Positions 7,999 to 55,943 of a DNA stretch of 61,376 nt are shown one piece after another. Both the position numbers and the translations under genes were made by a program. The notes below the pieces were generated by a model, which ran no database searches, was not told the DNA's origin, and saw only the letters and a program-made list of their open reading frames with translations. Position 1 is the first letter of the stretch. Every line of letters starts with the position of its first letter. Source of the DNA: Bacilli bacterium (lineage in GTDB: Bacteria; Bacillota_I; Bacilli_A; RF39; UBA660); NCBI GenBank assembly GCA_017441845.1, contig JAFRVB010000005.1:86150-147525 (forward strand), in the 5' to 3' direction.

Positions 7999-9198
7999 AT
8001 GACTAAGATTATTGAGACGGATTTAAAACTTCAAAATGGATATAAAGTTCATGTTAATGATAGTTATTTAGATACATATAAAGATGATATCTTGTCTTTT
8101 TTAGATGGTTTAGATGAATTTAAAACTTTAGATTTTGCGAAGAATATAATGATGGGTCAAGAAATCAAAGCTAATAATACTATTGAAGGTATAGTAGATG
8201 ATCTATCTATTATTGATGAGGTTATTAAAACTAAGGAAGATTTATCTTCTGAAGAGAGAAAAAGAATTATTAATTTATATCATGGATATGAATATATATT
8301 AAAACATAGAAGTATTGATAGAGAATCTATTGCGGATCTTTATGCTTTATTAAGTAATGGATTATTAGATGAATATAATTTAAAAAATACTTCTCGTTAT
8401 CATAGAGAAGCGCCTGTTTATATTCAAAGAAATTCTAGAATCGAAGGTTGTCCTTATACTGATAATATGTCTAGATACTTCTATGATCCAATGTTTGATT
8501 TTAATAGGAATGCTTTTCATGGTATAAAAGTAGATGAAATAGATGAATATATGAAATTATTAATAGATTATGTTAATAATGATAAAGATAAGAATAGTAT
8601 AGATAGTTTTATTAAGTCTCAGATAATTCACTTTTATTTTGTTTATATTCATCCATATATGGATGTTAATGGAAGAACATCTAGAACTATAGCGATGTGG
8701 TATTTATTAAATAAAGAAGAATTTCCATATATTATCTTTAATGAGGCTATTGCGTTCAATAAGGGTTATGAAGATAATATTATGAAGAGTAGAGATAGAG
8801 GAGATTTAACTTTATTCTTAAAATATATGATGATTAGTGTTCAAAAAGAGTTGGAAAAACATTATTTAATTAATAATATTAGTTCTAATTATGGAGAATA
8901 TATGAATAAAGAATTAAAACAACTTATTCAATATATTATATCTATGAAAGGTACTATTACTATTAAAGATATTACTACTTTTTATAATAGTTATAATAGT
9001 AAAAAATCTCCAATAAAATTATATGAAGAGATGATTAAACCTTTATTAGATGAAAATGTATTAGTAAAGGGAAAAGATACTAAAAAATATATTGATGGGG
9101 ATATCAAGAATTCTTTTATTTATTTGAATGATGATTTAATAGATGTTGATGAAAAGAAATTTAAATATTTAAAACTAGAAAGATTTCATAATAAATAG
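7999..9198 (+). CDS. Fic-family protein (probable AMP transferase)
   Basis: Fic enzymes usually transfer AMP to a hydroxyl side chain of a target protein. The 399-residue product carries the active loop at 218-226, HPYMDVNGR followed by TSR, close to the consensus HPFxDGNGRxxR with Val in place of the usual Gly or Ala. An upstream ANNTIEGIVDD segment around residue 58 resembles the auto-inhibitory helix (consensus SxxxEG), with the Ser position replaced. A winged-helix-like C-terminal part follows residue 300. It is cytoplasmic, alone on its transcript, and next to the putative secreted-effector cluster. Target unknown. Confidence 0.85.
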   Translation: MTKIIETDLKLQNGYKVHVNDSYLDTYKDDILSFLDGLDEFKTLDFAKNIMMGQEIKANNTIEGIVDDLSIIDEVIKTKEDLSSEERKRIINLYHGYEYILKHRSIDRESIADLYALLSNGLLDEYNLKNTSRYHREAPVYIQRNSRIEGCPYTDNMSRYFYDPMFDFNRNAFHGIKVDEIDEYMKLLIDYVNNDKDKNSIDSFIKSQIIHFYFVYIHPYMDVNGRTSRTIAMWYLLNKEEFPYIIFNEAIAFNKGYEDNIMKSRDRGDLTLFLKYMMISVQKELEKHYLINNISSNYGEYMNKELKQLIQYIISMKGTITIKDITTFYNSYNSKKSPIKLYEEMIKPLLDENVLVKGKDTKKYIDGDIKNSFIYLNDDLIDVDEKKFKYLKLERFHNK

Positions 9199-9238: not shown

Positions 9239-10015
9239 ATGGGATTTTCTGCTACAAGAATAGATGTAAAAACACCTGAAGCTAATAATTATGTAAATGA
9301 TTATAATGCTACTTTTGATGCTGATAATACTGTTAAGTCTGTTGAGGTTGAAAGTGTTGATTTTAGTAAAGAAGTTGAAAAAGTAGAAGATGTAGAATTA
9401 GCACAACAACCTAAAGTAGAAGAAGTGAAAGTAGAAGAAGTATCTTCATCATTTGAGAAACCTGATATTAAAGAAATAATAGATAATGCTTCTAAAGAAG
9501 TAGATACTAAATATGATGAAAAACCAAGTTCTAATTTAAAAGAACATAAATTTGTTAATTATTATCAAGGTGATTATAATAATCCTTATAGTGAAGGTAC
9601 TATCGCAACATCTGGTTGTGGACCTACGTCTGCAGCTATGGCTCTTACTTATATTACCGGTAAAGAAGTTAGTCCTGTTGAGACTGCTGAATTTGGTAAT
9701 GGTGATTATACTTGTTCAGAGGGAACATATTGGACTTATTTTGGAGATGTATCTGCTAAATATGGAGTTAAATGTAATGAAGAACATGTTTCAGCTGATA
9801 ATATTAAAAAAGGTCTAAGTGATGGAAAACCTGTTATTATTTCGATGGGACCTGGACACTTTACTTCTGCAGGACATTTTATTGTTCTTAGATCAATAGA
9901 TGGTGATGGTAATGTCAAGGTTGCTGATCCTGCTAGCAAAGAAAGATCAAGTGAAACTTGGAGTTTAGATACGATTGTATCTGAAGGAAAAGAGATTTGG
10001 ACATTTAATCTATAA
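9239..10015 (+). CDS. MGFS-head protein with C39-like cysteine peptidase domain
   Basis: A 258-residue protein without signal peptide or membrane segment. Residues 1-50 are the MGFS head also seen in the genes at 10072 and 12241 (MGFSxxxIdV, then P, then DyN, then VExES). An acidic Val/Glu-rich linker runs to about 100. Residues 105-257 are a C39-type papain-like domain: Cys127 in SGCGPTSAAM, His213 in AGHFIVLR, Asp230 in VADP. The same domain, roughly 80% identical by eye, sits behind a WXG-type head at 12933. The context suggests export by a type VII-like route and a wall or peptide substrate. Strong Shine-Dalgarno; own promoter and terminator. Confidence 0.8.
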   Translation: MGFSATRIDVKTPEANNYVNDYNATFDADNTVKSVEVESVDFSKEVEKVEDVELAQQPKVEEVKVEEVSSSFEKPDIKEIIDNASKEVDTKYDEKPSSNLKEHKFVNYYQGDYNNPYSEGTIATSGCGPTSAAMALTYITGKEVSPVETAEFGNGDYTCSEGTYWTYFGDVSAKYGVKCNEEHVSADNIKKGLSDGKPVIISMGPGHFTSAGHFIVLRSIDGDGNVKVADPASKERSSETWSLDTIVSEGKEIWTFNL

Positions 10016-10043
10016 AACTATTAGTCTAACTAATAGTTTTTTT
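10014..10043 (+). terminator. Intrinsic terminator
   Basis: AAAACTATTAG (10014-10024) with CTAATAGTTTT (10030-10040), loop TCTAA, then T run. Confidence 0.9.
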
Positions 10044-10044
10044 A

Positions 10045-10053
10045 TGATATAAT
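10045..10053 (+). promoter_or_regulatory. Extended -10 promoter
   Basis: TGATATAAT, 18 bases before ATG 10072. Confidence 0.65.
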
Positions 10054-10071
10054 TGAATTGGAGATGATGAT

Positions 10072-11577
10072 ATGGGATTCAGCAGTAAAAAGATAGAAGT
10101 AAATATACCTAGCTTAGATGAATTAGTAAGTGATGTTGCTAATGGGTTAGAAGAAAAGATAGAAGATGTTAAAAATGAAGTAGAATCCATTGATTTATCT
10201 GATGTATCTACTAAAGCAGGTATTTTTGGAGATAAATATTATGGTCATAAAGATTATGAAACATTAGAAGATTTAGATTTAAAAAGAAAAAAGAATTTAG
10301 ATGATATAGATAAATTTGTTAATTTAGAAAAACTAGACTTACAAAATTGTGATTTGAAAGATTCATCTGATTTAAAATCTATTCCTGATACGATAGAGAG
10401 TATTAAATTTACTAATTGTGAAATAGATGATTATTCTTATTTAAATAATAAAAGAAATCTTAATAAAATAGTTATTTATTGTGCTGATACTGGTATTAAT
10501 TTAAGTCAATTTCAAAATAGAAATCTTGATACATTAGTAATAGATGGTTGTAGGGGTAGTATTACTGGAGATTTAAGTAATATGCCAGGTTTAGAAACTA
10601 TTAATATTAGTAATACTAATATAACTGATTTAGATTTTATGAGAAATAATCATAATGTTAAAGAAGTATATTTGGATAGTAATTTATTAACAGATATTTC
10701 TTCTTTATATGATTCTGATATTGAGAAGTTATCTATTGAAAATAATTCTATTCAAGAATTAGATATTAGCAGATTTCCTAAATTAAAAGAATTGAATGTT
10801 TCAGATAATTATGCATTATATACAAGTGAATTATTAGCGGCTTGTAAAGCTAGAGGAATTGAAGTTGATATTGATCATGATGATGTTAAAATGATGAATG
10901 AAGTTAGAGATATAATTGATGATTTACATTTAGAAGGAAAGAGTCAATTAGAAAAAGAAGCTATTATTTATGATTATCTTATGAATCATATGGAATATAA
11001 TAGAAAATTAGAAGTAGAAAGTAATATGGAACCACTTAAATGTGCTTTAGATGGGGAAGGTGTATGTATTAGTTATGCTGTTTTCTTTAAAGCACTATGT
11101 AATGCTGCTGGAATAAACTCTTATTTAGATTTGGGTTATGCAAAACAAGGTGTTGTAATACCTGGTGGTCTTCATGCTTGGAATTTAATAGAAATAGAAG
11201 GACAATACTATCTATGTGATCCAACTTGGAGTGATAAAATGAGAGATAGTACACTTACTTTTTATGGCGTAAAAAAACTATGGAGTCATTTCTTTTCAGA
11301 TAGTGATTTACCACCAGAAGATCAATTCTATAATGTATATGGGAAAGATGCTAAAAAGTTTATGAAACAACATAGAGAAACAGCTAATGATGTTAAAAAA
11401 GATGAAATATATAAAGATGAGGAAGCTCTAAATATTGTTAGTGTTGATACATCTGATACAATTGGACAAAAACTTGCTGTTGATACAGCAGTTGTAGCTA
11501 CTGAACCATTTTCTTCTGGTATTAAGAAGATATCAAATGAATTAGTAGAAAAATTACAAATTAGTTATAGAGATTAA
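10072..11577 (+). CDS. MGFS-head protein with leucine-rich repeats and transglutaminase-like domain
   Basis: A 501-residue protein with three parts. Residues 1-45 are the MGFS head (MGFSSKKIEVNIP). Residues about 80-250 are irregular leucine-rich repeats (LEKLDLQNC, LETINISNTNITDL, VKEVYLDSNLLTDI, LKELNVSDN). Residues about 280-400 are a transglutaminase-like papain-fold domain with Cys332 in GEGVCISYA, His368 in LHAWN and Asp383 in CDPTW, a complete C-H-D triad. The tail is helical. No signal peptide. LRR plus transglutaminase-like fusions are often surface proteins, so export through the same route as its neighbours is likely, but is inference. Own promoter; convergent with the next gene. 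Confidence 0.8.
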   Translation: MGFSSKKIEVNIPSLDELVSDVANGLEEKIEDVKNEVESIDLSDVSTKAGIFGDKYYGHKDYETLEDLDLKRKKNLDDIDKFVNLEKLDLQNCDLKDSSDLKSIPDTIESIKFTNCEIDDYSYLNNKRNLNKIVIYCADTGINLSQFQNRNLDTLVIDGCRGSITGDLSNMPGLETINISNTNITDLDFMRNNHNVKEVYLDSNLLTDISSLYDSDIEKLSIENNSIQELDISRFPKLKELNVSDNYALYTSELLAACKARGIEVDIDHDDVKMMNEVRDIIDDLHLEGKSQLEKEAIIYDYLMNHMEYNRKLEVESNMEPLKCALDGEGVCISYAVFFKALCNAAGINSYLDLGYAKQGVVIPGGLHAWNLIEIEGQYYLCDPTWSDKMRDSTLTFYGVKKLWSHFFSDSDLPPEDQFYNVYGKDAKKFMKQHRETANDVKKDEIYKDEEALNIVSVDTSDTIGQKLAVDTAVVATEPFSSGIKKISNELVEKLQISYRD

Positions 11578-11605
11578 AAAACTATTGGATTTCCAATAGT
11601 TTTAA
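11577..11605. terminator. Bidirectional terminator
   Basis: AACTATTGG (11580-11588) with CCAATAGTT (11593-11601) flanked by A and T runs, serving both convergent genes. Confidence 0.85.
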
Positions 11606-12117
11606 TTTTCTTTAATATTTGTAATTATTTCAGATAACATGTTGAATAATGATTCATTTAAGTTGTTATCTTGTTCTACACTCATTTTATTATCTAATGT
11701 GATAGGTGGTGTTGAAACAGTTATTTGATAAAACATATTATTTTTATCTACTATGTAAGCATTCATTTGTTTAATGATTACATTATTAATAATATTATTT
11801 TGAACATACACTTTTATATCATTAATATTTTTATACCATAGGAGATTCTTTTCTGGAGAAAGAAAATCATTCTTTTTCATTTCTTCTATAGTTTCTTTAA
11901 TAACATTATTTAAGTGAGAATCATAATCTCCTTGTAATTCTTTATCTTTTATGAATTGTTCCATAAAGTTATCTGGGTTTTTTGCGATAAATATAATGTT
12001 TGGATGATCAGTTTCTATTATTTCAAATTCATTTAATAATGGGATTGATAAACTAGTAGAGTTAATATTTTCATTTAACTCTTTAACCATTTCTAATATT
12101 TTTTCATTATCATTCAT
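11602..12117 (-). CDS. Hypothetical 171-residue protein inside the secretion cluster
   Basis: Not recognised. A soluble acidic protein without signal peptide, with an N-terminal helix (NEKILEMVKELNENINS), a central helical part and a C-terminal beta stretch (NAYIVDKNNMFYQITVSTPP) then a last helix. The domain pattern is like small alpha/beta chaperone or immunity-type proteins, without a match I can name. It is the only minus-strand gene of the 9-16 kb cluster, has its own good promoter, and could be an immunity protein, chaperone or regulator for the exported enzymes. AGGTGAT precedes its ATG. Confidence 0.65.
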   Translation of the reverse strand: MNDNEKILEMVKELNENINSTSLSIPLLNEFEIIETDHPNIIFIAKNPDNFMEQFIKDKELQGDYDSHLNNVIKETIEEMKKNDFLSPEKNLLWYKNINDIKVYVQNNIINNVIIKQMNAYIVDKNNMFYQITVSTPPITLDNKMSVEQDNNLNESLFNMLSEIITNIKEN

Positions 12118-12133
12118 ATTATCACCTAGTGTA

Positions 12134-12162
12134 ATTATATACTAAAATAGTTGTAAAATCAA
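12134..12162 (-). promoter_or_regulatory. Promoter with -35 and -10 for minus-strand gene
   Basis: On the minus strand TTGATT (12162-12157), 17-base spacer, TATAAT (12139-12134), 17 bases from the ATG. Confidence 0.7.
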
Positions 12163-12193
12163 AAGTATTTTTATTTATTTTAATATTTCTTTA

Positions 12194-12202
12194 TGTTATA
12201 AT
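12194..12202 (+). promoter_or_regulatory. Extended -10 promoter
   Basis: TGTTATAAT ahead of AGGGAGGT (12228-12235) and ATG 12241. Confidence 0.65.
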
Positions 12203-12240
12203 TAATGTGGAAATATACTACTAAAATAGGGAGGTTTATT

Positions 12241-12906
12241 ATGGGATTTAGTTCAAAACCAATTGATGTAGAACAACCAAAATTGAATAATTTATTGAAT
12301 GATTATAATTCTAATTTGGCTGGTTCTGGCAAGGTTAATAGAGTTGAAACTGAAAGTATGGATATGGATGCGAGAGTTAATGAAACTACTCCTGAGCTTG
12401 AACCTTTGAGTTCGGTTGAAATACCACCTGAAATACAACAAACAGGATATACTGTTTCAGGATATGGTGAAGATGGTGCGGTTTTACCTAGTATGAATAC
12501 TGTTGCGTTTACAGAAGGATCTAATCAAAAAGAATTACATGAGATGTGGGTAAATGAAGGAGCATCATATAAAAATGATATTGCGACTATGAATGTTAAT
12601 GGTGAAGATAGATATCTAATTGTAACTTCAGATACTTTTGGTAGTGTTGGAGATATGGTTACACTTGAACTTGGTAATGGTGAAAAAATAGATTGTGTTA
12701 TTGCGGATACTAAAGGTTCTGGTGGAGTTAATTTTTCTAAATATGGAGATGCTTATGGAGACCAAGTTAACGTTGTACAATTTGAAGTAAATATTGGTAA
12801 GTTTAATGCTTCTGGTAATCCAACTACTGAAAGTTGGAACTTAGAATGGGATAGTAATAGTCCTGTTGTTAATATTAAAAATTATGGATCAATTTTAAAT
12901 AAATAA
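12241..12906 (+). CDS. MGFS-head protein with VGD/CVI beta domain
   Basis: A 221-residue protein. Residues 1-50 are the MGFS head (MGFSSKPIDVEQP, NDYN, VETES). The second half contains SVGDMVTLELGNGEKIDCVIADT and ends VVNIKNYGSIL. This half resembles the C-terminus of the protein at 13861 (KVGDKLTITSTSGETINCVIGST, then NVANIQN), so the two share a domain. The pattern is like double-psi beta-barrel (RlpA/3D-type) wall domains, which is an inference without a search. No signal peptide. ATG 12241 is chosen because AGGGAGGT lies just before it and alignment of the head starts there. It heads the probable operon 12241-15241. Confidence 0.75.
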   Translation: MGFSSKPIDVEQPKLNNLLNDYNSNLAGSGKVNRVETESMDMDARVNETTPELEPLSSVEIPPEIQQTGYTVSGYGEDGAVLPSMNTVAFTEGSNQKELHEMWVNEGASYKNDIATMNVNGEDRYLIVTSDTFGSVGDMVTLELGNGEKIDCVIADTKGSGGVNFSKYGDAYGDQVNVVQFEVNIGKFNASGNPTTESWNLEWDSNSPVVNIKNYGSILNK

Positions 12907-12932
12907 TAGTTAAGAATAATATAGGAGGATGT

Positions 12933-13841
12933 ATGGTAAGTAGTAGTAAAGTAAATTCTGATTGTAGTACCATAACTAGTACATTAAGTAAATATACGAC
13001 TGCTGTATCTGGTCTTTCCGGTGATTGGAAAGGTGCTTCATATGACAATTTATCATCTAAAGCTGCAGAATTTATTGCTGATGCTCAAGGTAAGATTAGC
13101 AAGAGTATGGAAGCATTTGCTACTGCATGTGATGAATATGAAAAGTATCTTGAAAAAAAACAAGAATTAAAAGATCTTCAATCAAAATTGAGTGATGCTA
13201 AAAATAAAGATTCTGAAGAGAATGATATGTCCTCTACAATAAGACATTATCAAAGTAAGATTAGTGATAAAAAAGAAGAAATTGAAACTTTAAAGAAACA
13301 AATAAAATCACATTTGTCTACCGCTAGTGGATCTAAAGTTAAAGGTGCTAATCCACAAATGACTGTAGCTGGACATGCTTTTGTTAATTATTATCAGTTT
13401 GATTATAATAATCCATACAGTCAAGGTACAATCGCGACATCTGGTTGTGGACCTACGTCTGCGGCTATGGCTCTTACTTATATTACTGGTAAAGAAATTA
13501 CACCTGTTGAGACAGCTGAATTTGGTAATGGTACTTATACATGTTCTCAAGGAACATATTGGTCATACTTTGGAGCTGTATCTGAAAAGTATGGAGTTAA
13601 ATGTAATCAAGAATCAGTATCTTCTGATAATATAAAAAATGGATTTAAAAATGGTAAACCTGTTATTATATCTATGGGTCCAGGACACTTTACTTCTGCA
13701 GGACACTTCATAGTTCTTAGAGGTATGGATAGTAATGGTAAAGTTATTGTTGCAGATCCTAATAGTAAAGAAAAGTCAAACCAAACTTGGGATATGGATA
13801 CAATCGTAGCGGAAGGAAAACAAATTTGGACTTTCCAATAA
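12933..13841 (+). CDS. WXG-type head fused to C39-like cysteine peptidase
   Basis: A 302-residue protein. Residues 1-75 look like a WXG100 helical hairpin with the turn motif DWKGASYDN (Trp32-Lys-Gly34). Residues about 70-125 are a charged coiled coil. Residues 150-302 are the same C39-type domain as in the gene at 9239, with Cys172, His258 and Asp275. WXG100-fold heads target proteins to ESX/type VII systems, so this is a likely exported peptidase. ATG 12933 has AGGAGG only 4 bases upstream, unusually close, but no better in-frame start exists. It is 26 bases downstream of the previous gene. Confidence 0.8.
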   Translation: MVSSSKVNSDCSTITSTLSKYTTAVSGLSGDWKGASYDNLSSKAAEFIADAQGKISKSMEAFATACDEYEKYLEKKQELKDLQSKLSDAKNKDSEENDMSSTIRHYQSKISDKKEEIETLKKQIKSHLSTASGSKVKGANPQMTVAGHAFVNYYQFDYNNPYSQGTIATSGCGPTSAAMALTYITGKEITPVETAEFGNGTYTCSQGTYWSYFGAVSEKYGVKCNQESVSSDNIKNGFKNGKPVIISMGPGHFTSAGHFIVLRGMDSNGKVIVADPNSKEKSNQTWDMDTIVAEGKQIWTFQ

Positions 13842-13860
13842 AAAAAGTGGGTGAATATAA

Positions 13861-14949
13861 ATGGCAATATTTAAAATGAATACTGAAAGTTTAACTTCAG
13901 CATCTAGCACTATTAATAGTGAAGCTAATAAAGTTAGTGAAGTTGCTGATAGTATAAGTGGTTATGATGTTAGTTGTGAGGATGATTTTGATTTTGCAGG
14001 TGCTAAATCAGTTTTAGCTGCTAATGCTGATGCTTGTTATAACAAAGTGTTGAATACAGCTAAATTAATTGATAAATGCGCTGAAAGTCATATGGATTTA
14101 CAAAACCAATTGGCTAATATGCCTGATCCAGCTGCAGAAGAAGCTAGCGAGACACCAGAGGAAGAAACTACAACTACTGCACCAACTACTTCAGGTCCAA
14201 GTTATTCAGGACCAAGTTATTCGGGTCCAAGTAGTTCTGGAAGATCTCATTTCGGATCAAAATCTTCTGGTACTTCTCATCATGAAGAGCCTGTCACAAA
14301 AGAACCAACTACAGCTACTACAACAACACCTGTTACAGCAATACCTTCAGTTAATGAAGAAGGTCAAACTTATGTTGATACACTTGTTTCTGATGATGAG
14401 GTTGATGATGATTTAGATCAAGTAGTAGAAGAAACTCCTACAACTACTGAACCAACAGAAACTACTACTGAAACACCAACAACTACAGAACAAGATACTA
14501 ATCAAACAATAAATGTAAGTGAAGCACCAACTACTGTTGGAGAAGAATCTGCTAAAGTGTTTATGGATGATGATTTCTCTTATGATGCTAATGGTTATGC
14601 TAAATTAGGAGATAATTATGTTATATCTTGTAATGAATCTCTAGGAAAAGTCGGAGATAAATTAACTATAACTTCTACTAGTGGAGAAACAATAAATTGT
14701 GTTATTGGAAGTACTACTAGTTCAAATGATATAAGTATGATTGTAGATAAAACAGTTTATTCACCAACTACTGGTACTACAGCAATAAACTTTAATAATA
14801 ATGTTGCTAATATTCAAAATGAAGGACAATCTAGTTTATTAACACCTATGGTACCTGGTGGAACATCTACAACATTAAATGATAAAGATAATTTAGAAGA
14901 TGTGATTGTTGTTCCTGAAGAGAACAATACACAAACAGATGGGAGTTGA
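13861..14949 (+). CDS. WXG-like head, Thr/Ser/Pro-rich linker and VGD/CVI beta domain
   Basis: A 362-residue protein. Residues 1-85 form an Ala/Ser-rich two-helix region with the shape of WXG100 proteins but without Trp at the turn (DFDFAGAKS). Residues 90-230 are a low-complexity linker with repeated SGPSYSGPS and TTTTET runs, typical of an extracellular wall-spanning spacer. Residues about 245-330 hold the beta domain shared with the gene at 12241 (KVGDKLTI, GETINCVIGS). No signal peptide is seen, consistent with a type VII-like route. GTGGGTG precedes the ATG; the stop overlaps the next gene's Shine-Dalgarno. Confidence 0.75.
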   Translation: MAIFKMNTESLTSASSTINSEANKVSEVADSISGYDVSCEDDFDFAGAKSVLAANADACYNKVLNTAKLIDKCAESHMDLQNQLANMPDPAAEEASETPEEETTTTAPTTSGPSYSGPSYSGPSSSGRSHFGSKSSGTSHHEEPVTKEPTTATTTTPVTAIPSVNEEGQTYVDTLVSDDEVDDDLDQVVEETPTTTEPTETTTETPTTTEQDTNQTINVSEAPTTVGEESAKVFMDDDFSYDANGYAKLGDNYVISCNESLGKVGDKLTITSTSGETINCVIGSTTSSNDISMIVDKTVYSPTTGTTAINFNNNVANIQNEGQSSLLTPMVPGGTSTTLNDKDNLEDVIVVPEENNTQTDGS

Positions 14950-14953
14950 TTAA

Positions 14954-15241
14954 ATGGCTGAATTAGTATGTGATTTTGAAGCGGTGAAAAAAGCAGGAAA
15001 TGATTTAATAAAAGCTTCTGGTGATTATGACAAAGCTATTAGTACTTTTTCATCTGGAATTGATAGTGATTTAGCTGGATGGGAAAGTGCATCAAAATCT
15101 GTCTTTAATAGTCAAAAAGAAGCACAAGTTGTAGCATCTAAAGCAGCTTCTGCTCAAACAAAGGCTGTAGGTGAATACATTAAAGGTTGCGCTGAAGCTA
15201 TTGAAGAATTAGACGAAGAATTAGCGTCTGCAGGCATTTAA
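14954..15241 (+). CDS. WXG100-like protein (WES variant)
   Basis: A 95-residue all-helical protein with the turn at Trp43-Glu-Ser45 (AGWESASKS) flanked by Ala/Ser-rich helices, the size and plan of WXG100 proteins, with Ser replacing the Gly of WxG. Starts 4 bases after the preceding stop; GGGAG at 14941-14945 lies inside the upstream gene, so translation is coupled. Probably a secreted partner or chaperone-like dimer subunit for the larger proteins upstream. Confidence 0.75.
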   Translation: MAELVCDFEAVKKAGNDLIKASGDYDKAISTFSSGIDSDLAGWESASKSVFNSQKEAQVVASKAASAQTKAVGEYIKGCAEAIEELDEELASAGI

Positions 15242-15268
15242 GTGTAAAATTTTTGTCATATTTTACAC
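15242..15268 (+). other. Perfect 9-base inverted repeat without U-tract
   Basis: GTGTAAAAT (15242-15250) and ATTTTACAC (15260-15268) around a 9-base loop, just after the WES gene stop and upstream of the next promoter. No T run follows the 3' arm, so it is not a standard terminator; it could be an RNA end-stabilising hairpin, a processing site or an operator. Confidence 0.5.
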
Positions 15269-15294
15269 AGTTTGATGAATGTTTATGAGATAAA

Positions 15295-15303
15295 TGATAT
15301 AAT
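15295..15303 (+). promoter_or_regulatory. Extended -10 promoter of WXG100 pair
   Basis: TGATATAAT followed by TAGGAGGT at 15313-15320 and ATG 15327. Confidence 0.65.
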
Positions 15304-15326
15304 TTTTTTAGATAGGAGGTAAAGTT

Positions 15327-15632
15327 ATGTCAGGTGGTTTAAAAGTAAATACCGGATCAATGAATACTAATGGTAGAGATACTGTTTCTTCTGCCGAAAA
15401 TCTTGCTAGTGAACTATCTAGCTTAAAAAGCAACATGGAAAATTTAATGACTATTTGGAGAGGAAAATCTGCTAATGATTTTAATGAGGCTTATGAACAA
15501 CAAAATCAAAATTTCCAAGCATTTCAACAATTATTAAATGAATTAGGAGAAAAGATTAGTGCTGCTGCTAAAAATCTTAATCAAACAGAGGAAGATAACG
15601 CTAGAGCAGGATCTAACTTATTCGGTAATTAG
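15327..15632 (+). CDS. WXG100-family protein (EsxA/YukE-like)
   Basis: A 101-residue canonical WXG100 protein: two helices joined at Trp44-Arg-Gly46 (TIWRGKSANDF), with no signal peptide. Such proteins are small dimeric substrates of ESX/type VII secretion and are needed for export of larger cargo. Strong Shine-Dalgarno and own promoter. The next gene begins 12 bases downstream, giving a typical pair. No EssC-type ATPase is present in the window, so the machinery must lie elsewhere if the system is complete. Confidence 0.88.
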   Translation: MSGGLKVNTGSMNTNGRDTVSSAENLASELSSLKSNMENLMTIWRGKSANDFNEAYEQQNQNFQAFQQLLNELGEKISAAAKNLNQTEEDNARAGSNLFGN

Positions 15633-15644
15633 GAGGGTATTTAA

Positions 15645-15944
15645 ATGAATGAATTTGAAGAGAAAGATTATGGCGAAGCGAGAAGTCTAGCAGATGGTAT
15701 TCTAACTAACGCTAATAATATTAATGATATATTTGATACTATAGATCGTGTTATGAATGATCTATATGGTTCAAATTGGCAAAGTACAGGTGCAGATAGA
15801 GCTAGAGAAAGATATGATCAAATTCGTAAAAACTATCAAGTTTTCTACCAAAAAGTAGTTGATATGAAAACTCATATCTATAATGTTACTGCTGCTAATG
15901 AAGAAGCAGATACTGCAGCTAGTGCAATGATTTCTAAAATATAA
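15645..15944 (+). CDS. WXG100-like protein (WQS variant)
   Basis: A 99-residue helical protein with the turn at Trp45-Gln-Ser47 (SNWQSTGADRARERYDQI). It is the likely partner of the WXG100 protein encoded just upstream, with AGGAGGG overlapping the upstream stop. Acidic at the N-terminus and Ala-rich at the C-terminus. Together with the genes at 14954 and 15327 it gives three small WXG-type proteins in a row. Confidence 0.8.
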   Translation: MNEFEEKDYGEARSLADGILTNANNINDIFDTIDRVMNDLYGSNWQSTGADRARERYDQIRKNYQVFYQKVVDMKTHIYNVTAANEEADTAASAMISKI

Positions 15945-53984: not shown

Positions 53985-55943
53985 ATGAAAAAACAAATAA
54001 AAAGAGACATTAATATATTTAGTAACAATTGGAGTATAAAAAAGAATTATAAATTTTATACTTCAGTGTTTTTGTCATGCCTTTTTGCCATAACTTCATT
54101 TATAAGTGTAGGTTTTGGTGCTTTAAATCAAGATATGAGTATAGCCGGTGATGTTAGATATACACAGGATGTGGGTAATATGATTAGGGCATGGTCAGTG
54201 TTTTATACATATCAGGATTTTCAGAATCCCGCCTATAAACCTAAGATTGTGACTGCTGATTTTTTGGATAATAAAAATGTACCTGCTAATGCTGTTGAAT
54301 CATGGGATGTATCTGAAAACGGAAATGGTAAAGTAATAGCTTGGATAATAGATGATCCAAATAATCCTGGTTATTATAAATTATATATAGGTGCAGATGG
54401 AGATGTTGTTGCTAATGTAAGATCTGCCATGATATTTTATTATTTTGATAATCTTGAAACAGTAAACTTTAATGATAATTTTGATACATCGCAAACTACT
54501 GATATGGGTGGTATGTTTCAGGGTTGTAAAAAACTGGTAAACTTGGATGTTAGTTCTTTTGATACTTCAAATGTTACAAACATGTCATCTATGTTTTCTG
54601 GATGTGAATCTTTAACTGCGTTAGATTTAAGTAATTTTAATACTACAAAATTAACAGGTATGAATTCTATGTTCTGTGAATGTAAAAAACTAGCATCTTT
54701 AGATATAAGTTCTTTTAATACTACGCTTGTAACAAATTTTGGTTTTACATTTGAAAGATGTTATGAATTAACCACTTTAAATTTAAATAACTTTAATACT
54801 TCAAGTGCTACTGATATGTATTATATGTTTTGGGGATGTAAGGGTTTGACTAGTTTAAATTTAAGTCATTTTGATACTTCAAAAGTGACAACTATGAATT
54901 ATATGTTTTCTGATTGTGGTGGTTTAACAAGTTTGAATGTTTCGAATTTTAATACATCCAATGTAACAACTATGGATCACATGTTTCAAGGTTGTTCGAA
55001 ATTAATTTCATTAGACTTGAGTTCATTTGATACTTCTAAAGTTAGCGATATGGATTATATATTTTCTAGCTGTAAAGCATTAACAAGTTTAAATGTAACA
55101 AGTTTTAATACTTCTCTAATAACAGATATGTCATATATGTTTAATCAATGTAATTCTTTACCAAGTCTTAACGTATCAAGCTTTGATATATCTAATGTAA
55201 CAAATATGGAATATATGTTTTCTAATTGCCTTTCTTTAAATTCTTTAAATTTGAGTAATTTTGATACCTCTAAAGTAACTGTAATGACAAGTTTATTTAC
55301 TATGTGTCAAGCATTAACAACTTTAAATATCACAAGTTTTGATACGTCAAAAGTGACAACTATGGATTACATGTTTAACTGTTGTAGTAGTTTAACAAGC
55401 TTAGATGTATCCAATTTTGATACATCAAAAGTTACTGATATGAGATATATGTTCAGAGAATGTGGTAGTTTAACAAGTTTAAATCTTAGTAATTTTGATA
55501 CTTCCCAAGTAACAAATATGTCATTTATGTTTTTAGAATGTGGTAGTTTAACAAGTCTAAATTTAAGTACTTTTGATACTTCTAAATTATCAACAATGGT
55601 ATGTATGTTTGATGGTTGTTCTAGTTTAACAAGTCTAAATTTGAGCAGTTTTGATACATCACAGGTGACAATTATGGCCGAGATGTTTGAGGGCTGTGCT
55701 AGTTTAACAAATCTTGATCTAACAAGTTTTGATACAAGTAATGTAACAGATATGGCAGCTATGTTTTCTGATTGTAGCAATCTATCAGAAATCAAAATAT
55801 CGTCTTTATGGGATGTATCTAATGTTACTGATGGTAATAGGATGTTTTATCAATGCTATGCATTGCCTAATTATAGTTATAGTTCTACTGGAATAAGTAT
55901 GGCTAAACCAACTACTCAAGGAGGATATTTAACTTTGGTTTAA
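53985..55943 (+). CDS. BspA-like surface protein with DUF285 repeats
   Basis: A 652-residue predicted surface protein. An N-terminal basic stretch and hydrophobic segment at about 27-48 (YTSVFLSCLFAITSFISVGFGA) act as signal or anchor. A non-repeat domain (about 50-173) follows. Residues 174-625 are about 17 repeats of 26 residues of the type MFxxCxxLTSLNLSxFDTSKVTD, typical of BspA/DUF285 leucine-rich-like proteins. The end is a short unique tail without LPxTG or obvious anchor. Its codon choice looks slightly richer in G and C than its neighbours. Adhesion or matrix binding is known for some BspA relatives. AGG-rich site precedes the ATG. Confidence 0.85.
   Translation: MKKQIKRDINIFSNNWSIKKNYKFYTSVFLSCLFAITSFISVGFGALNQDMSIAGDVRYTQDVGNMIRAWSVFYTYQDFQNPAYKPKIVTADFLDNKNVPANAVESWDVSENGNGKVIAWIIDDPNNPGYYKLYIGADGDVVANVRSAMIFYYFDNLETVNFNDNFDTSQTTDMGGMFQGCKKLVNLDVSSFDTSNVTNMSSMFSGCESLTALDLSNFNTTKLTGMNSMFCECKKLASLDISSFNTTLVTNFGFTFERCYELTTLNLNNFNTSSATDMYYMFWGCKGLTSLNLSHFDTSKVTTMNYMFSDCGGLTSLNVSNFNTSNVTTMDHMFQGCSKLISLDLSSFDTSKVSDMDYIFSSCKALTSLNVTSFNTSLITDMSYMFNQCNSLPSLNVSSFDISNVTNMEYMFSNCLSLNSLNLSNFDTSKVTVMTSLFTMCQALTTLNITSFDTSKVTTMDYMFNCCSSLTSLDVSNFDTSKVTDMRYMFRECGSLTSLNLSNFDTSQVTNMSFMFLECGSLTSLNLSTFDTSKLSTMVCMFDGCSSLTSLNLSSFDTSQVTIMAEMFEGCASLTNLDLTSFDTSNVTDMAAMFSDCSNLSEIKISSLWDVSNVTDGNRMFYQCYALPNYSYSSTGISMAKPTTQGGYLTLV
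54504..55860 (+). repeat. Array of about 17 78-base coding repeats
   Basis: Tandem 26-codon units starting with ATG-x-x-ATG-TTT and containing a Cys codon four codons after. Unit 4 (FGFTFERCYEL) and the last unit are most diverged; units 12-16 are closest to one another. Confidence 0.85.

Follow-up and report, generated by a model that had tools for sequence, protein, structure and literature searches.

Characterised substrates of type VII secretion systems are recognised via helical hairpins and small helical partners. Here we analysed a window of 61,376 nucleotides from a Bacilli bacterium (GTDB lineage Bacillota_I; Bacilli_A; RF39; UBA660), namely positions 86,150 to 147,525 of contig JAFRVB010000005.1 in assembly GCA_017441845.1. 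Positions 9239 to 15944 of this window hold a compact cluster of nine genes. We consider it rather probable that the cluster is a substrate island serving a type VII (EssC/YukD) system, with two kinds of targeting head, a WXG100-like helical hairpin and a short segment that begins MGFS, and that the motors are encoded elsewhere in the genome. The source assembly, which includes the window, is 784 kb in size and 67.5% complete, and missing genes are weak evidence in such a genome. The assemblies are draft metagenome bins, and the genomes used for comparison form a small, mutually related set.

Among described systems, the locus resembles type VIIb secretion and the variants T7SSc-j (PMC11217815) in having EssC proteins above the profile cut-off, a candidate YukD-like open reading frame (ORF), WXG100 proteins and substrates with small helical partners. 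It differs from type VIIb in that EssB was not found and in that motor genes and substrate island are separated in the genome. Around neither EssC gene did we recognise any of the T7SSc-j component sets taken from that paper. LXG toxins and their Lap partners (PMC9600955) show the same general plan of a modular N-terminal targeting head, a variable C-terminal domain and linked small helical proteins, with DUF4176 nearby. In contrast to LXG toxins, the heads here are WXG hairpins or the short MGFS segment rather than LXG domains, and one genome has the same payload behind two unrelated heads. One of the payloads resembles the Tox-PL-C39 domains in its C39-related papain fold and in its conserved Cys, His and Asp; however, the survey of that family names type II, type VI and PVC systems as its export routes, not type VII (PMC3482391).

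Shared payloads behind unrelated heads

An earlier note on this DNA, made from the letters of the sequence, had proposed a modular set of type VII-exported enzymes in which two heads are crossed with two payloads, and all ORFs that it named were confirmed at their positions. The protein encoded at 9239–10015 (forward strand, as are all genes of the cluster described in this section) consists of an MGFS head (about residues 1–45), an acidic linker and a C39-like papain-fold domain (about residues 100–258). The protein encoded at 12933–13841 carries a C39-like domain behind a WXG-type helical head with a W-x-G motif (residues 1 to about 135). Between these C39 domains 123 of 154 positions are identical (80%; E 2e-98), and the heads are unrelated, as the note had seen. 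Both domains match Pfam Peptidase_C39_2 (E 2.5e-19 and 9.9e-22; 70.7 and 78.5 bits against a cut-off of 24), and the Cys, His and Asp of the catalytic triad are invariant in seven C39 sequences. By Pfam score and triad the two payloads are C39-like peptidases, with predicted activity.

A C39-domain scan of the named genomes matched a sister genome, G003 (locus L059), and four further loci (L060–L063). The recovered assembly of G003 holds the MGFS edition only of the C39 effector. In L060–L062 the domain stands behind a head of the 12933 type; in L063 it is joined to a different WXG head, and a 12933-type head is encoded alone. The same payload thus occurs behind three different heads, so that the interchangeability of the heads is supported more strongly than the earlier note could know. 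A C39-like payload of another subtype is common to an MSGF-headed and a WXG-headed protein on contig C9 of G003 (40% identity over 180 residues; E 3e-48). More distant C39 relatives are present in 15 other genomes, and with distant matches included the domain occurs in 13 of 122 good-quality relatives.

The second payload, a beta domain, is likewise found under both heads: it follows an MGFS head in the protein at 12241–12906, and it follows a WXG-like helical hairpin (residues 1 to about 90) and a low-complexity linker in the protein at 13861–14949. Position 12241 is the MGFS start of this third MGFS protein, and a further in-frame ATG lies upstream at 12205. The two beta domains are 37% identical over 43 residues (E 4e-8), a kinship weaker than that of the C39 pair but real, and the orthologues in G003 display the identical pairing pattern. 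A conserved segment, CVIxD..K..YG, is kept in the MGFS-headed copy and missing from the copies with WXG heads in this genus; the payload of 13861 looks degenerate, which the earlier note missed. A homologue of the 12241 domain in L061 is 49.5% identical to the tail lysin of Eggerthella phage LE1-1 (E 1e-21). In the phage protein the shared domain is N-terminal, and we read the C-terminal part as looking like a second cell-wall domain; here, in contrast, it forms the C-terminal payload behind a targeting head. A comparison of the 12241 payload with the double-psi beta-barrel had to use a model of low confidence in this part and gave a single weak expansin match (E 0.81). Sequence searches of PDB with the beta and C39 domains returned no credible match, and among viral contigs no relatives were found of either domain or of the middle region of the larger MGFS toxins described below. 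No plasmid carriage was found for the accessory gene or for that middle region. The remaining MGFS protein of the cluster (10072–11577) combines leucine-rich repeats with a transglutaminase-like domain, as had been noted, and both assignments are borne out by Pfam (LRR_4, E 1.4e-12; Transglut_core, E 1.3e-10).

The cluster ends with three small proteins that the earlier note had assigned to the WXG100 type. Against a Pfam WXG100 cut-off of 27.3 bits this holds for the products of 15327–15632 (W-x-G; 55.7 bits, E 5.9e-15), a candidate EsxA-type partner, and of 15645–15944 (W-x-S; 32.9 bits, E 7.9e-8). The protein at 14954–15241 (W-x-S) falls under the cut-off at 15.0 bits, and its WXG100-like assignment comes from context. 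The 12933 head, taken alone, also falls under it (16.3 bits). However, its W32-x-G34 is invariant among seven homologous heads, and a G003 head that is 40% identical to it passes the Pfam model (36.9 bits), which by homology places the 12933 head among the WXG100-superfamily hairpins with W-x-G at the turn. The 13861 head lacks the W-x-G motif and has no Pfam match. Its homologue in L061 is predicted to form a two-helix hairpin (helices 8–33 and 45–98; predicted local distance difference test score, pLDDT, mostly 77–89), for which the Foldseek list includes EsxA and other WXG100 structures with weak E-values. Via this homologue the 13861 head is predicted to be a WXG-like hairpin as well, in line with the heads that the note had described. 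No window protein matched Pfam LXG (PF04740), a result that for 12933 refers to the best 25 of 31 families; one G003 head reached 16.4 bits against a cut-off of 26.5.

The MGFS head is of another kind. It spans about 45 residues, with Met1 and Pro13 invariant and Phe3 nearly so, contains no W-x-G, and is probably non-helical and unlike the hairpin. Hydrophobic N-terminal segments are absent from all proteins of the set, which agrees with the earlier observation that signal peptides are absent.

EssC motors and the MGFS head

The earlier note had linked the set to type VII secretion and had suggested a search for EssC and EssB elsewhere in the genome. The window itself lacks a secretion ATPase, but two EssC proteins of about 1520 residues are encoded elsewhere in the genome (896.8 and 985.5 bits to TIGR03928; curated NCBI cut-off 778.4). 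Directly after each lies an ORF of 85–90 residues. No Pfam or NCBIfam model matched these ORFs, and for this reason we name them by size, place and our own recognition, taking them to be YukD-like. No EssA or EsaA gene was recognised beside either EssC, although no search was aimed at these two families. EssC passed the cut-off in six of six genomes with the C39 module compared to 37 of 147 relatives (Fisher p 3e-4, a value that ignores kinship). Type VII ATPases therefore accompany every C39 module found, and the proposed link to this machinery is upheld in the related genomes.

In a tree of 31 EssC proteins, the two of this genome fall into separate, well-supported clades. A profile of the MGFS head found exactly five matches in the genome, three in the cluster and two just downstream of the EssC gene on contig C7. 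These two proteins (810 and 669 residues) have no signal segment; one gives a weak HD-like match and the other has an HExxH site, and the second of them is encoded directly behind a DUF4176 gene, a family frequent in type VII loci (PMC9600955). In G003, three MGFS-type proteins are encoded downstream of the orthologous EssC gene (contig C18), two in the orthologous cluster, one of them with the divergent start MTDY, and a further one on contig C9. In their HExxH and HD-like C-termini and small downstream genes, the large EssC-adjacent MGFS proteins resemble polymorphic toxins. Downstream of three distinct MGFS toxins, and also in the neighbourhood of a related EssC gene, lie genes for small proteins with the pattern YPDEW...EAI.E.K.I.ET (L032, 2937–3170; L035, 15788–16033 and 17735–18022; L109, 2001–2450), which possibly form a common accessory or immunity family.

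G003, with its orthologue of the C7-type EssC, is the only other genome with MGFS heads. Related but distinct EssC proteins of the C7 clade occur without MGFS in G001, G002, G007, G071 and others, which weakens a strict pairing of MGFS with one EssC clade. In genome G007, a gene for a 2025-residue protein with a transglutaminase domain (L122/L128, 7351–13428) and one for a 1050-residue protein with LysM domains (L127, 535–3687) lie beside an EssC gene of clade 2. Both proteins have low-complexity N-termini and no visible signal peptide, and this suggests that the C7-type EssC clade may export proteins with non-helical heads. An E-x-[VI]-D-L motif common to the MGFS heads and the G007 proteins is a hint only, as the pattern was derived from the same proteins on which it was tested.

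Two other candidates were set aside. An MGFS profile match in genome G457 proved to be a surface protein whose hydrophobic signal segment is of the usual kind, and an N-myristoylation-like role of the MGFS start was rejected because the residue at position 3 is bulky and the host is a bacterium. A gene whose product resembles zinc-dependent phospholipase C recurs in several genera close to EssC and YukD-like genes (L054, L058, with a Pfam match, L104, L105 and L127). Adjoining the EssC gene of contig C8 is a gene for a 998-residue papain-like protein with repeat domains and an N-terminal hydrophobic segment (L006, 12858–15854).

A Mog1-fold gene beside the C39 payload

The gene at 11602–12117, on the reverse strand, is the ninth of the set and was overlooked in the earlier note. 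A homologue adjoins the C39 gene in six of six genomes, under all three head types. It is oriented opposite to the C39 gene here, in G003 and in L060, and lies directly downstream of it in L061–L063. Two further members were found by searching with the 11602 family alone. In genome G908 (L103, 8079–8606) the gene stands alone at the syntenic site where L060 has a WXG-C39 effector in addition; the effector has apparently been lost or gained. In genome G845 (L102, 8419–9357) the 11602-type domain follows an unrelated N-terminal part within a larger protein, whose gene neighbours are of unknown kind. The predicted structure of the 11602 protein (pLDDT 84) has the Mog1/PsbP/DcrB fold and matches Mog1 itself (Z 12.3 over 146 residues, 3.1 Å) as well as SciW (Z 11.3), EagT6 (Z 9.8), TplEi (Z 9.2) and Tsi3 (Z 7.8). 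EspG-type chaperones were not among the structure matches listed, which does not exclude them. None of six members of the family matched DUF1795 (pfam08786) by sequence in Pfam at E-values up to 1.

The fold and the effector-adjacent position are shared with the Mog1/PsbP/DUF1795 Eag chaperones and with Mog1-like immunity proteins (SciW, EagT6, Tsi3), which are known, however, in type VI secretion. The fold alone would suit an immunity or an adaptor role. An export adaptor like the Eag/DUF1795 chaperones is possible, though we think it somewhat doubtful: the matches to SciW and EagT6 equal or exceed those to immunity proteins, and the Mog1-like neighbours of type VI toxins serve as adaptors (PMC4524185, PMC3482391), yet Eag proteins bind transmembrane segments and none were seen in the C39 proteins. 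Moreover, targeting factors track heads, whereas the 11602 family tracks the C39 payload over three unrelated heads and is retained in G908 without an effector gene. For these reasons immunity is favoured, and the 11602 protein fits a candidate immunity protein for the C39 domain. Type VII secretion would then have its own Mog1-fold immunity protein (or adaptor), in parallel with type VI. The literature found to mention DUF1795 together with type VII secretion concerns, judged by title and abstract, type VI systems or gene surveys.

A probable substrate island and its alternatives

If the cluster is a substrate island, the WXG100-like hairpins of 12933 and 13861 would pair with the stand-alone WXG100 proteins of 14954–15944 and lead to EssC. 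The MGFS heads would dock via a different route, probably the contig C7 EssC, the neighbour of the large MGFS toxin genes. Payloads would have been recombined between heads, giving WXG and MGFS editions both of the C39-like cysteine protease and of the lysin-type beta domain, and the leucine-rich repeat and transglutaminase protein in the MGFS edition only. Once exported, the payloads may attack neighbouring cells through their peptidoglycan or their proteins, and the 11602 protein may shield the producer from the C39 domain. The location of its genes makes the MGFS head a putative export signal, and targets in the envelope or in neighbours are suggested by the phage tail-lysin relative and the candidate immunity gene. 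Only tentatively do we go further and propose for the MGFS head the role of a novel, non-helical type VII signal read by a second EssC machine, one cell issuing the same payload in two editions, one per motor. This is hinted at by the restriction of MGFS to the two genomes with the C7/C18 branch of EssC and by the G007 neighbours of EssC, with their low-complexity, signal-less starts and transglutaminase or LysM domains. If true, the use of both a hairpin head and a short non-hairpin head for the same payloads within one cell would offer a natural experiment on EssC recognition.

Several observations weigh against the substrate island. EssB (PF10140) was not over its cut-off in nine genomes, four of them of this genus and this one 67.5% complete, so that this part of the suggested search came back empty. 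A profile search of about 450 genomes of the order found convincing MGFS heads in only two, and the type VII link of this head therefore rests on a few related loci, several of them probably tandem copies. The beta domain of 13861 is without the conserved residues, and at least one edition may therefore be inactive.

These points leave room for other explanations. The MGFS copies could stay in the cytoplasm as decoys or regulators related to the exported WXG effectors, their head a lineage-specific N-terminus, since it is limited to one genus and lacks the WXG hairpin. This is unlikely in our view: the large MGFS proteins adjoining EssC are toxin-like, the MGFS-only C39 effector of G003 has no WXG counterpart in the recovered assembly, and it is the MGFS beta copy that keeps the segment lost by the WXG copy, the opposite of what a decoy would lead one to expect. 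Nor do we think it probable that the proteins are type VII-exported housekeeping enzymes that remodel the producer's own wall, with no role in competition. The organism presumably makes peptidoglycan, since the window holds ORFs that we take to be MurG- and MurB-like, besides an FtsZ-like one; the beta domain is related to a lysin, and the signal-less LysM protein of G007 adjoins a related EssC. However, the patchy distribution of the C39 domain among relatives, the shuffling of heads and payloads, the toxin-like MGFS proteins at the EssC locus and the orphan 11602 gene, which immunity would predict, all speak against this reading. We give least credence to the view that the shared domains simply reflect tandem duplication followed by drift, and that it is functionally irrelevant which head a payload carries. 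The compactness of the cluster would suit it, and the synonymous divergence (dS) of the C39 paralogues (0.59) is close to that of most orthologues of the two species (0.53–0.75; 0.36 for one gene), so that one old duplication could explain the C39 pair; as a means of dating that duplication, dS was uninformative. In contrast, drift would not readily give conserved payloads with unrelated heads, a crossing that recurs for three payloads and at a second G003 locus, or the fusion of C39 to a third head in L063.

Outside the cluster, a Fic/DOC-domain protein is encoded immediately upstream of it (window 7999–9198), and such a protein is also found near the orthologous cluster in G003. Surface-type repeat proteins with a nearly identical N-terminus (FYIT..SVGFGALN) are encoded in the window at 53985–55943, at L006 3436–5277, at L032 from 9888 and at L036 1–1609.

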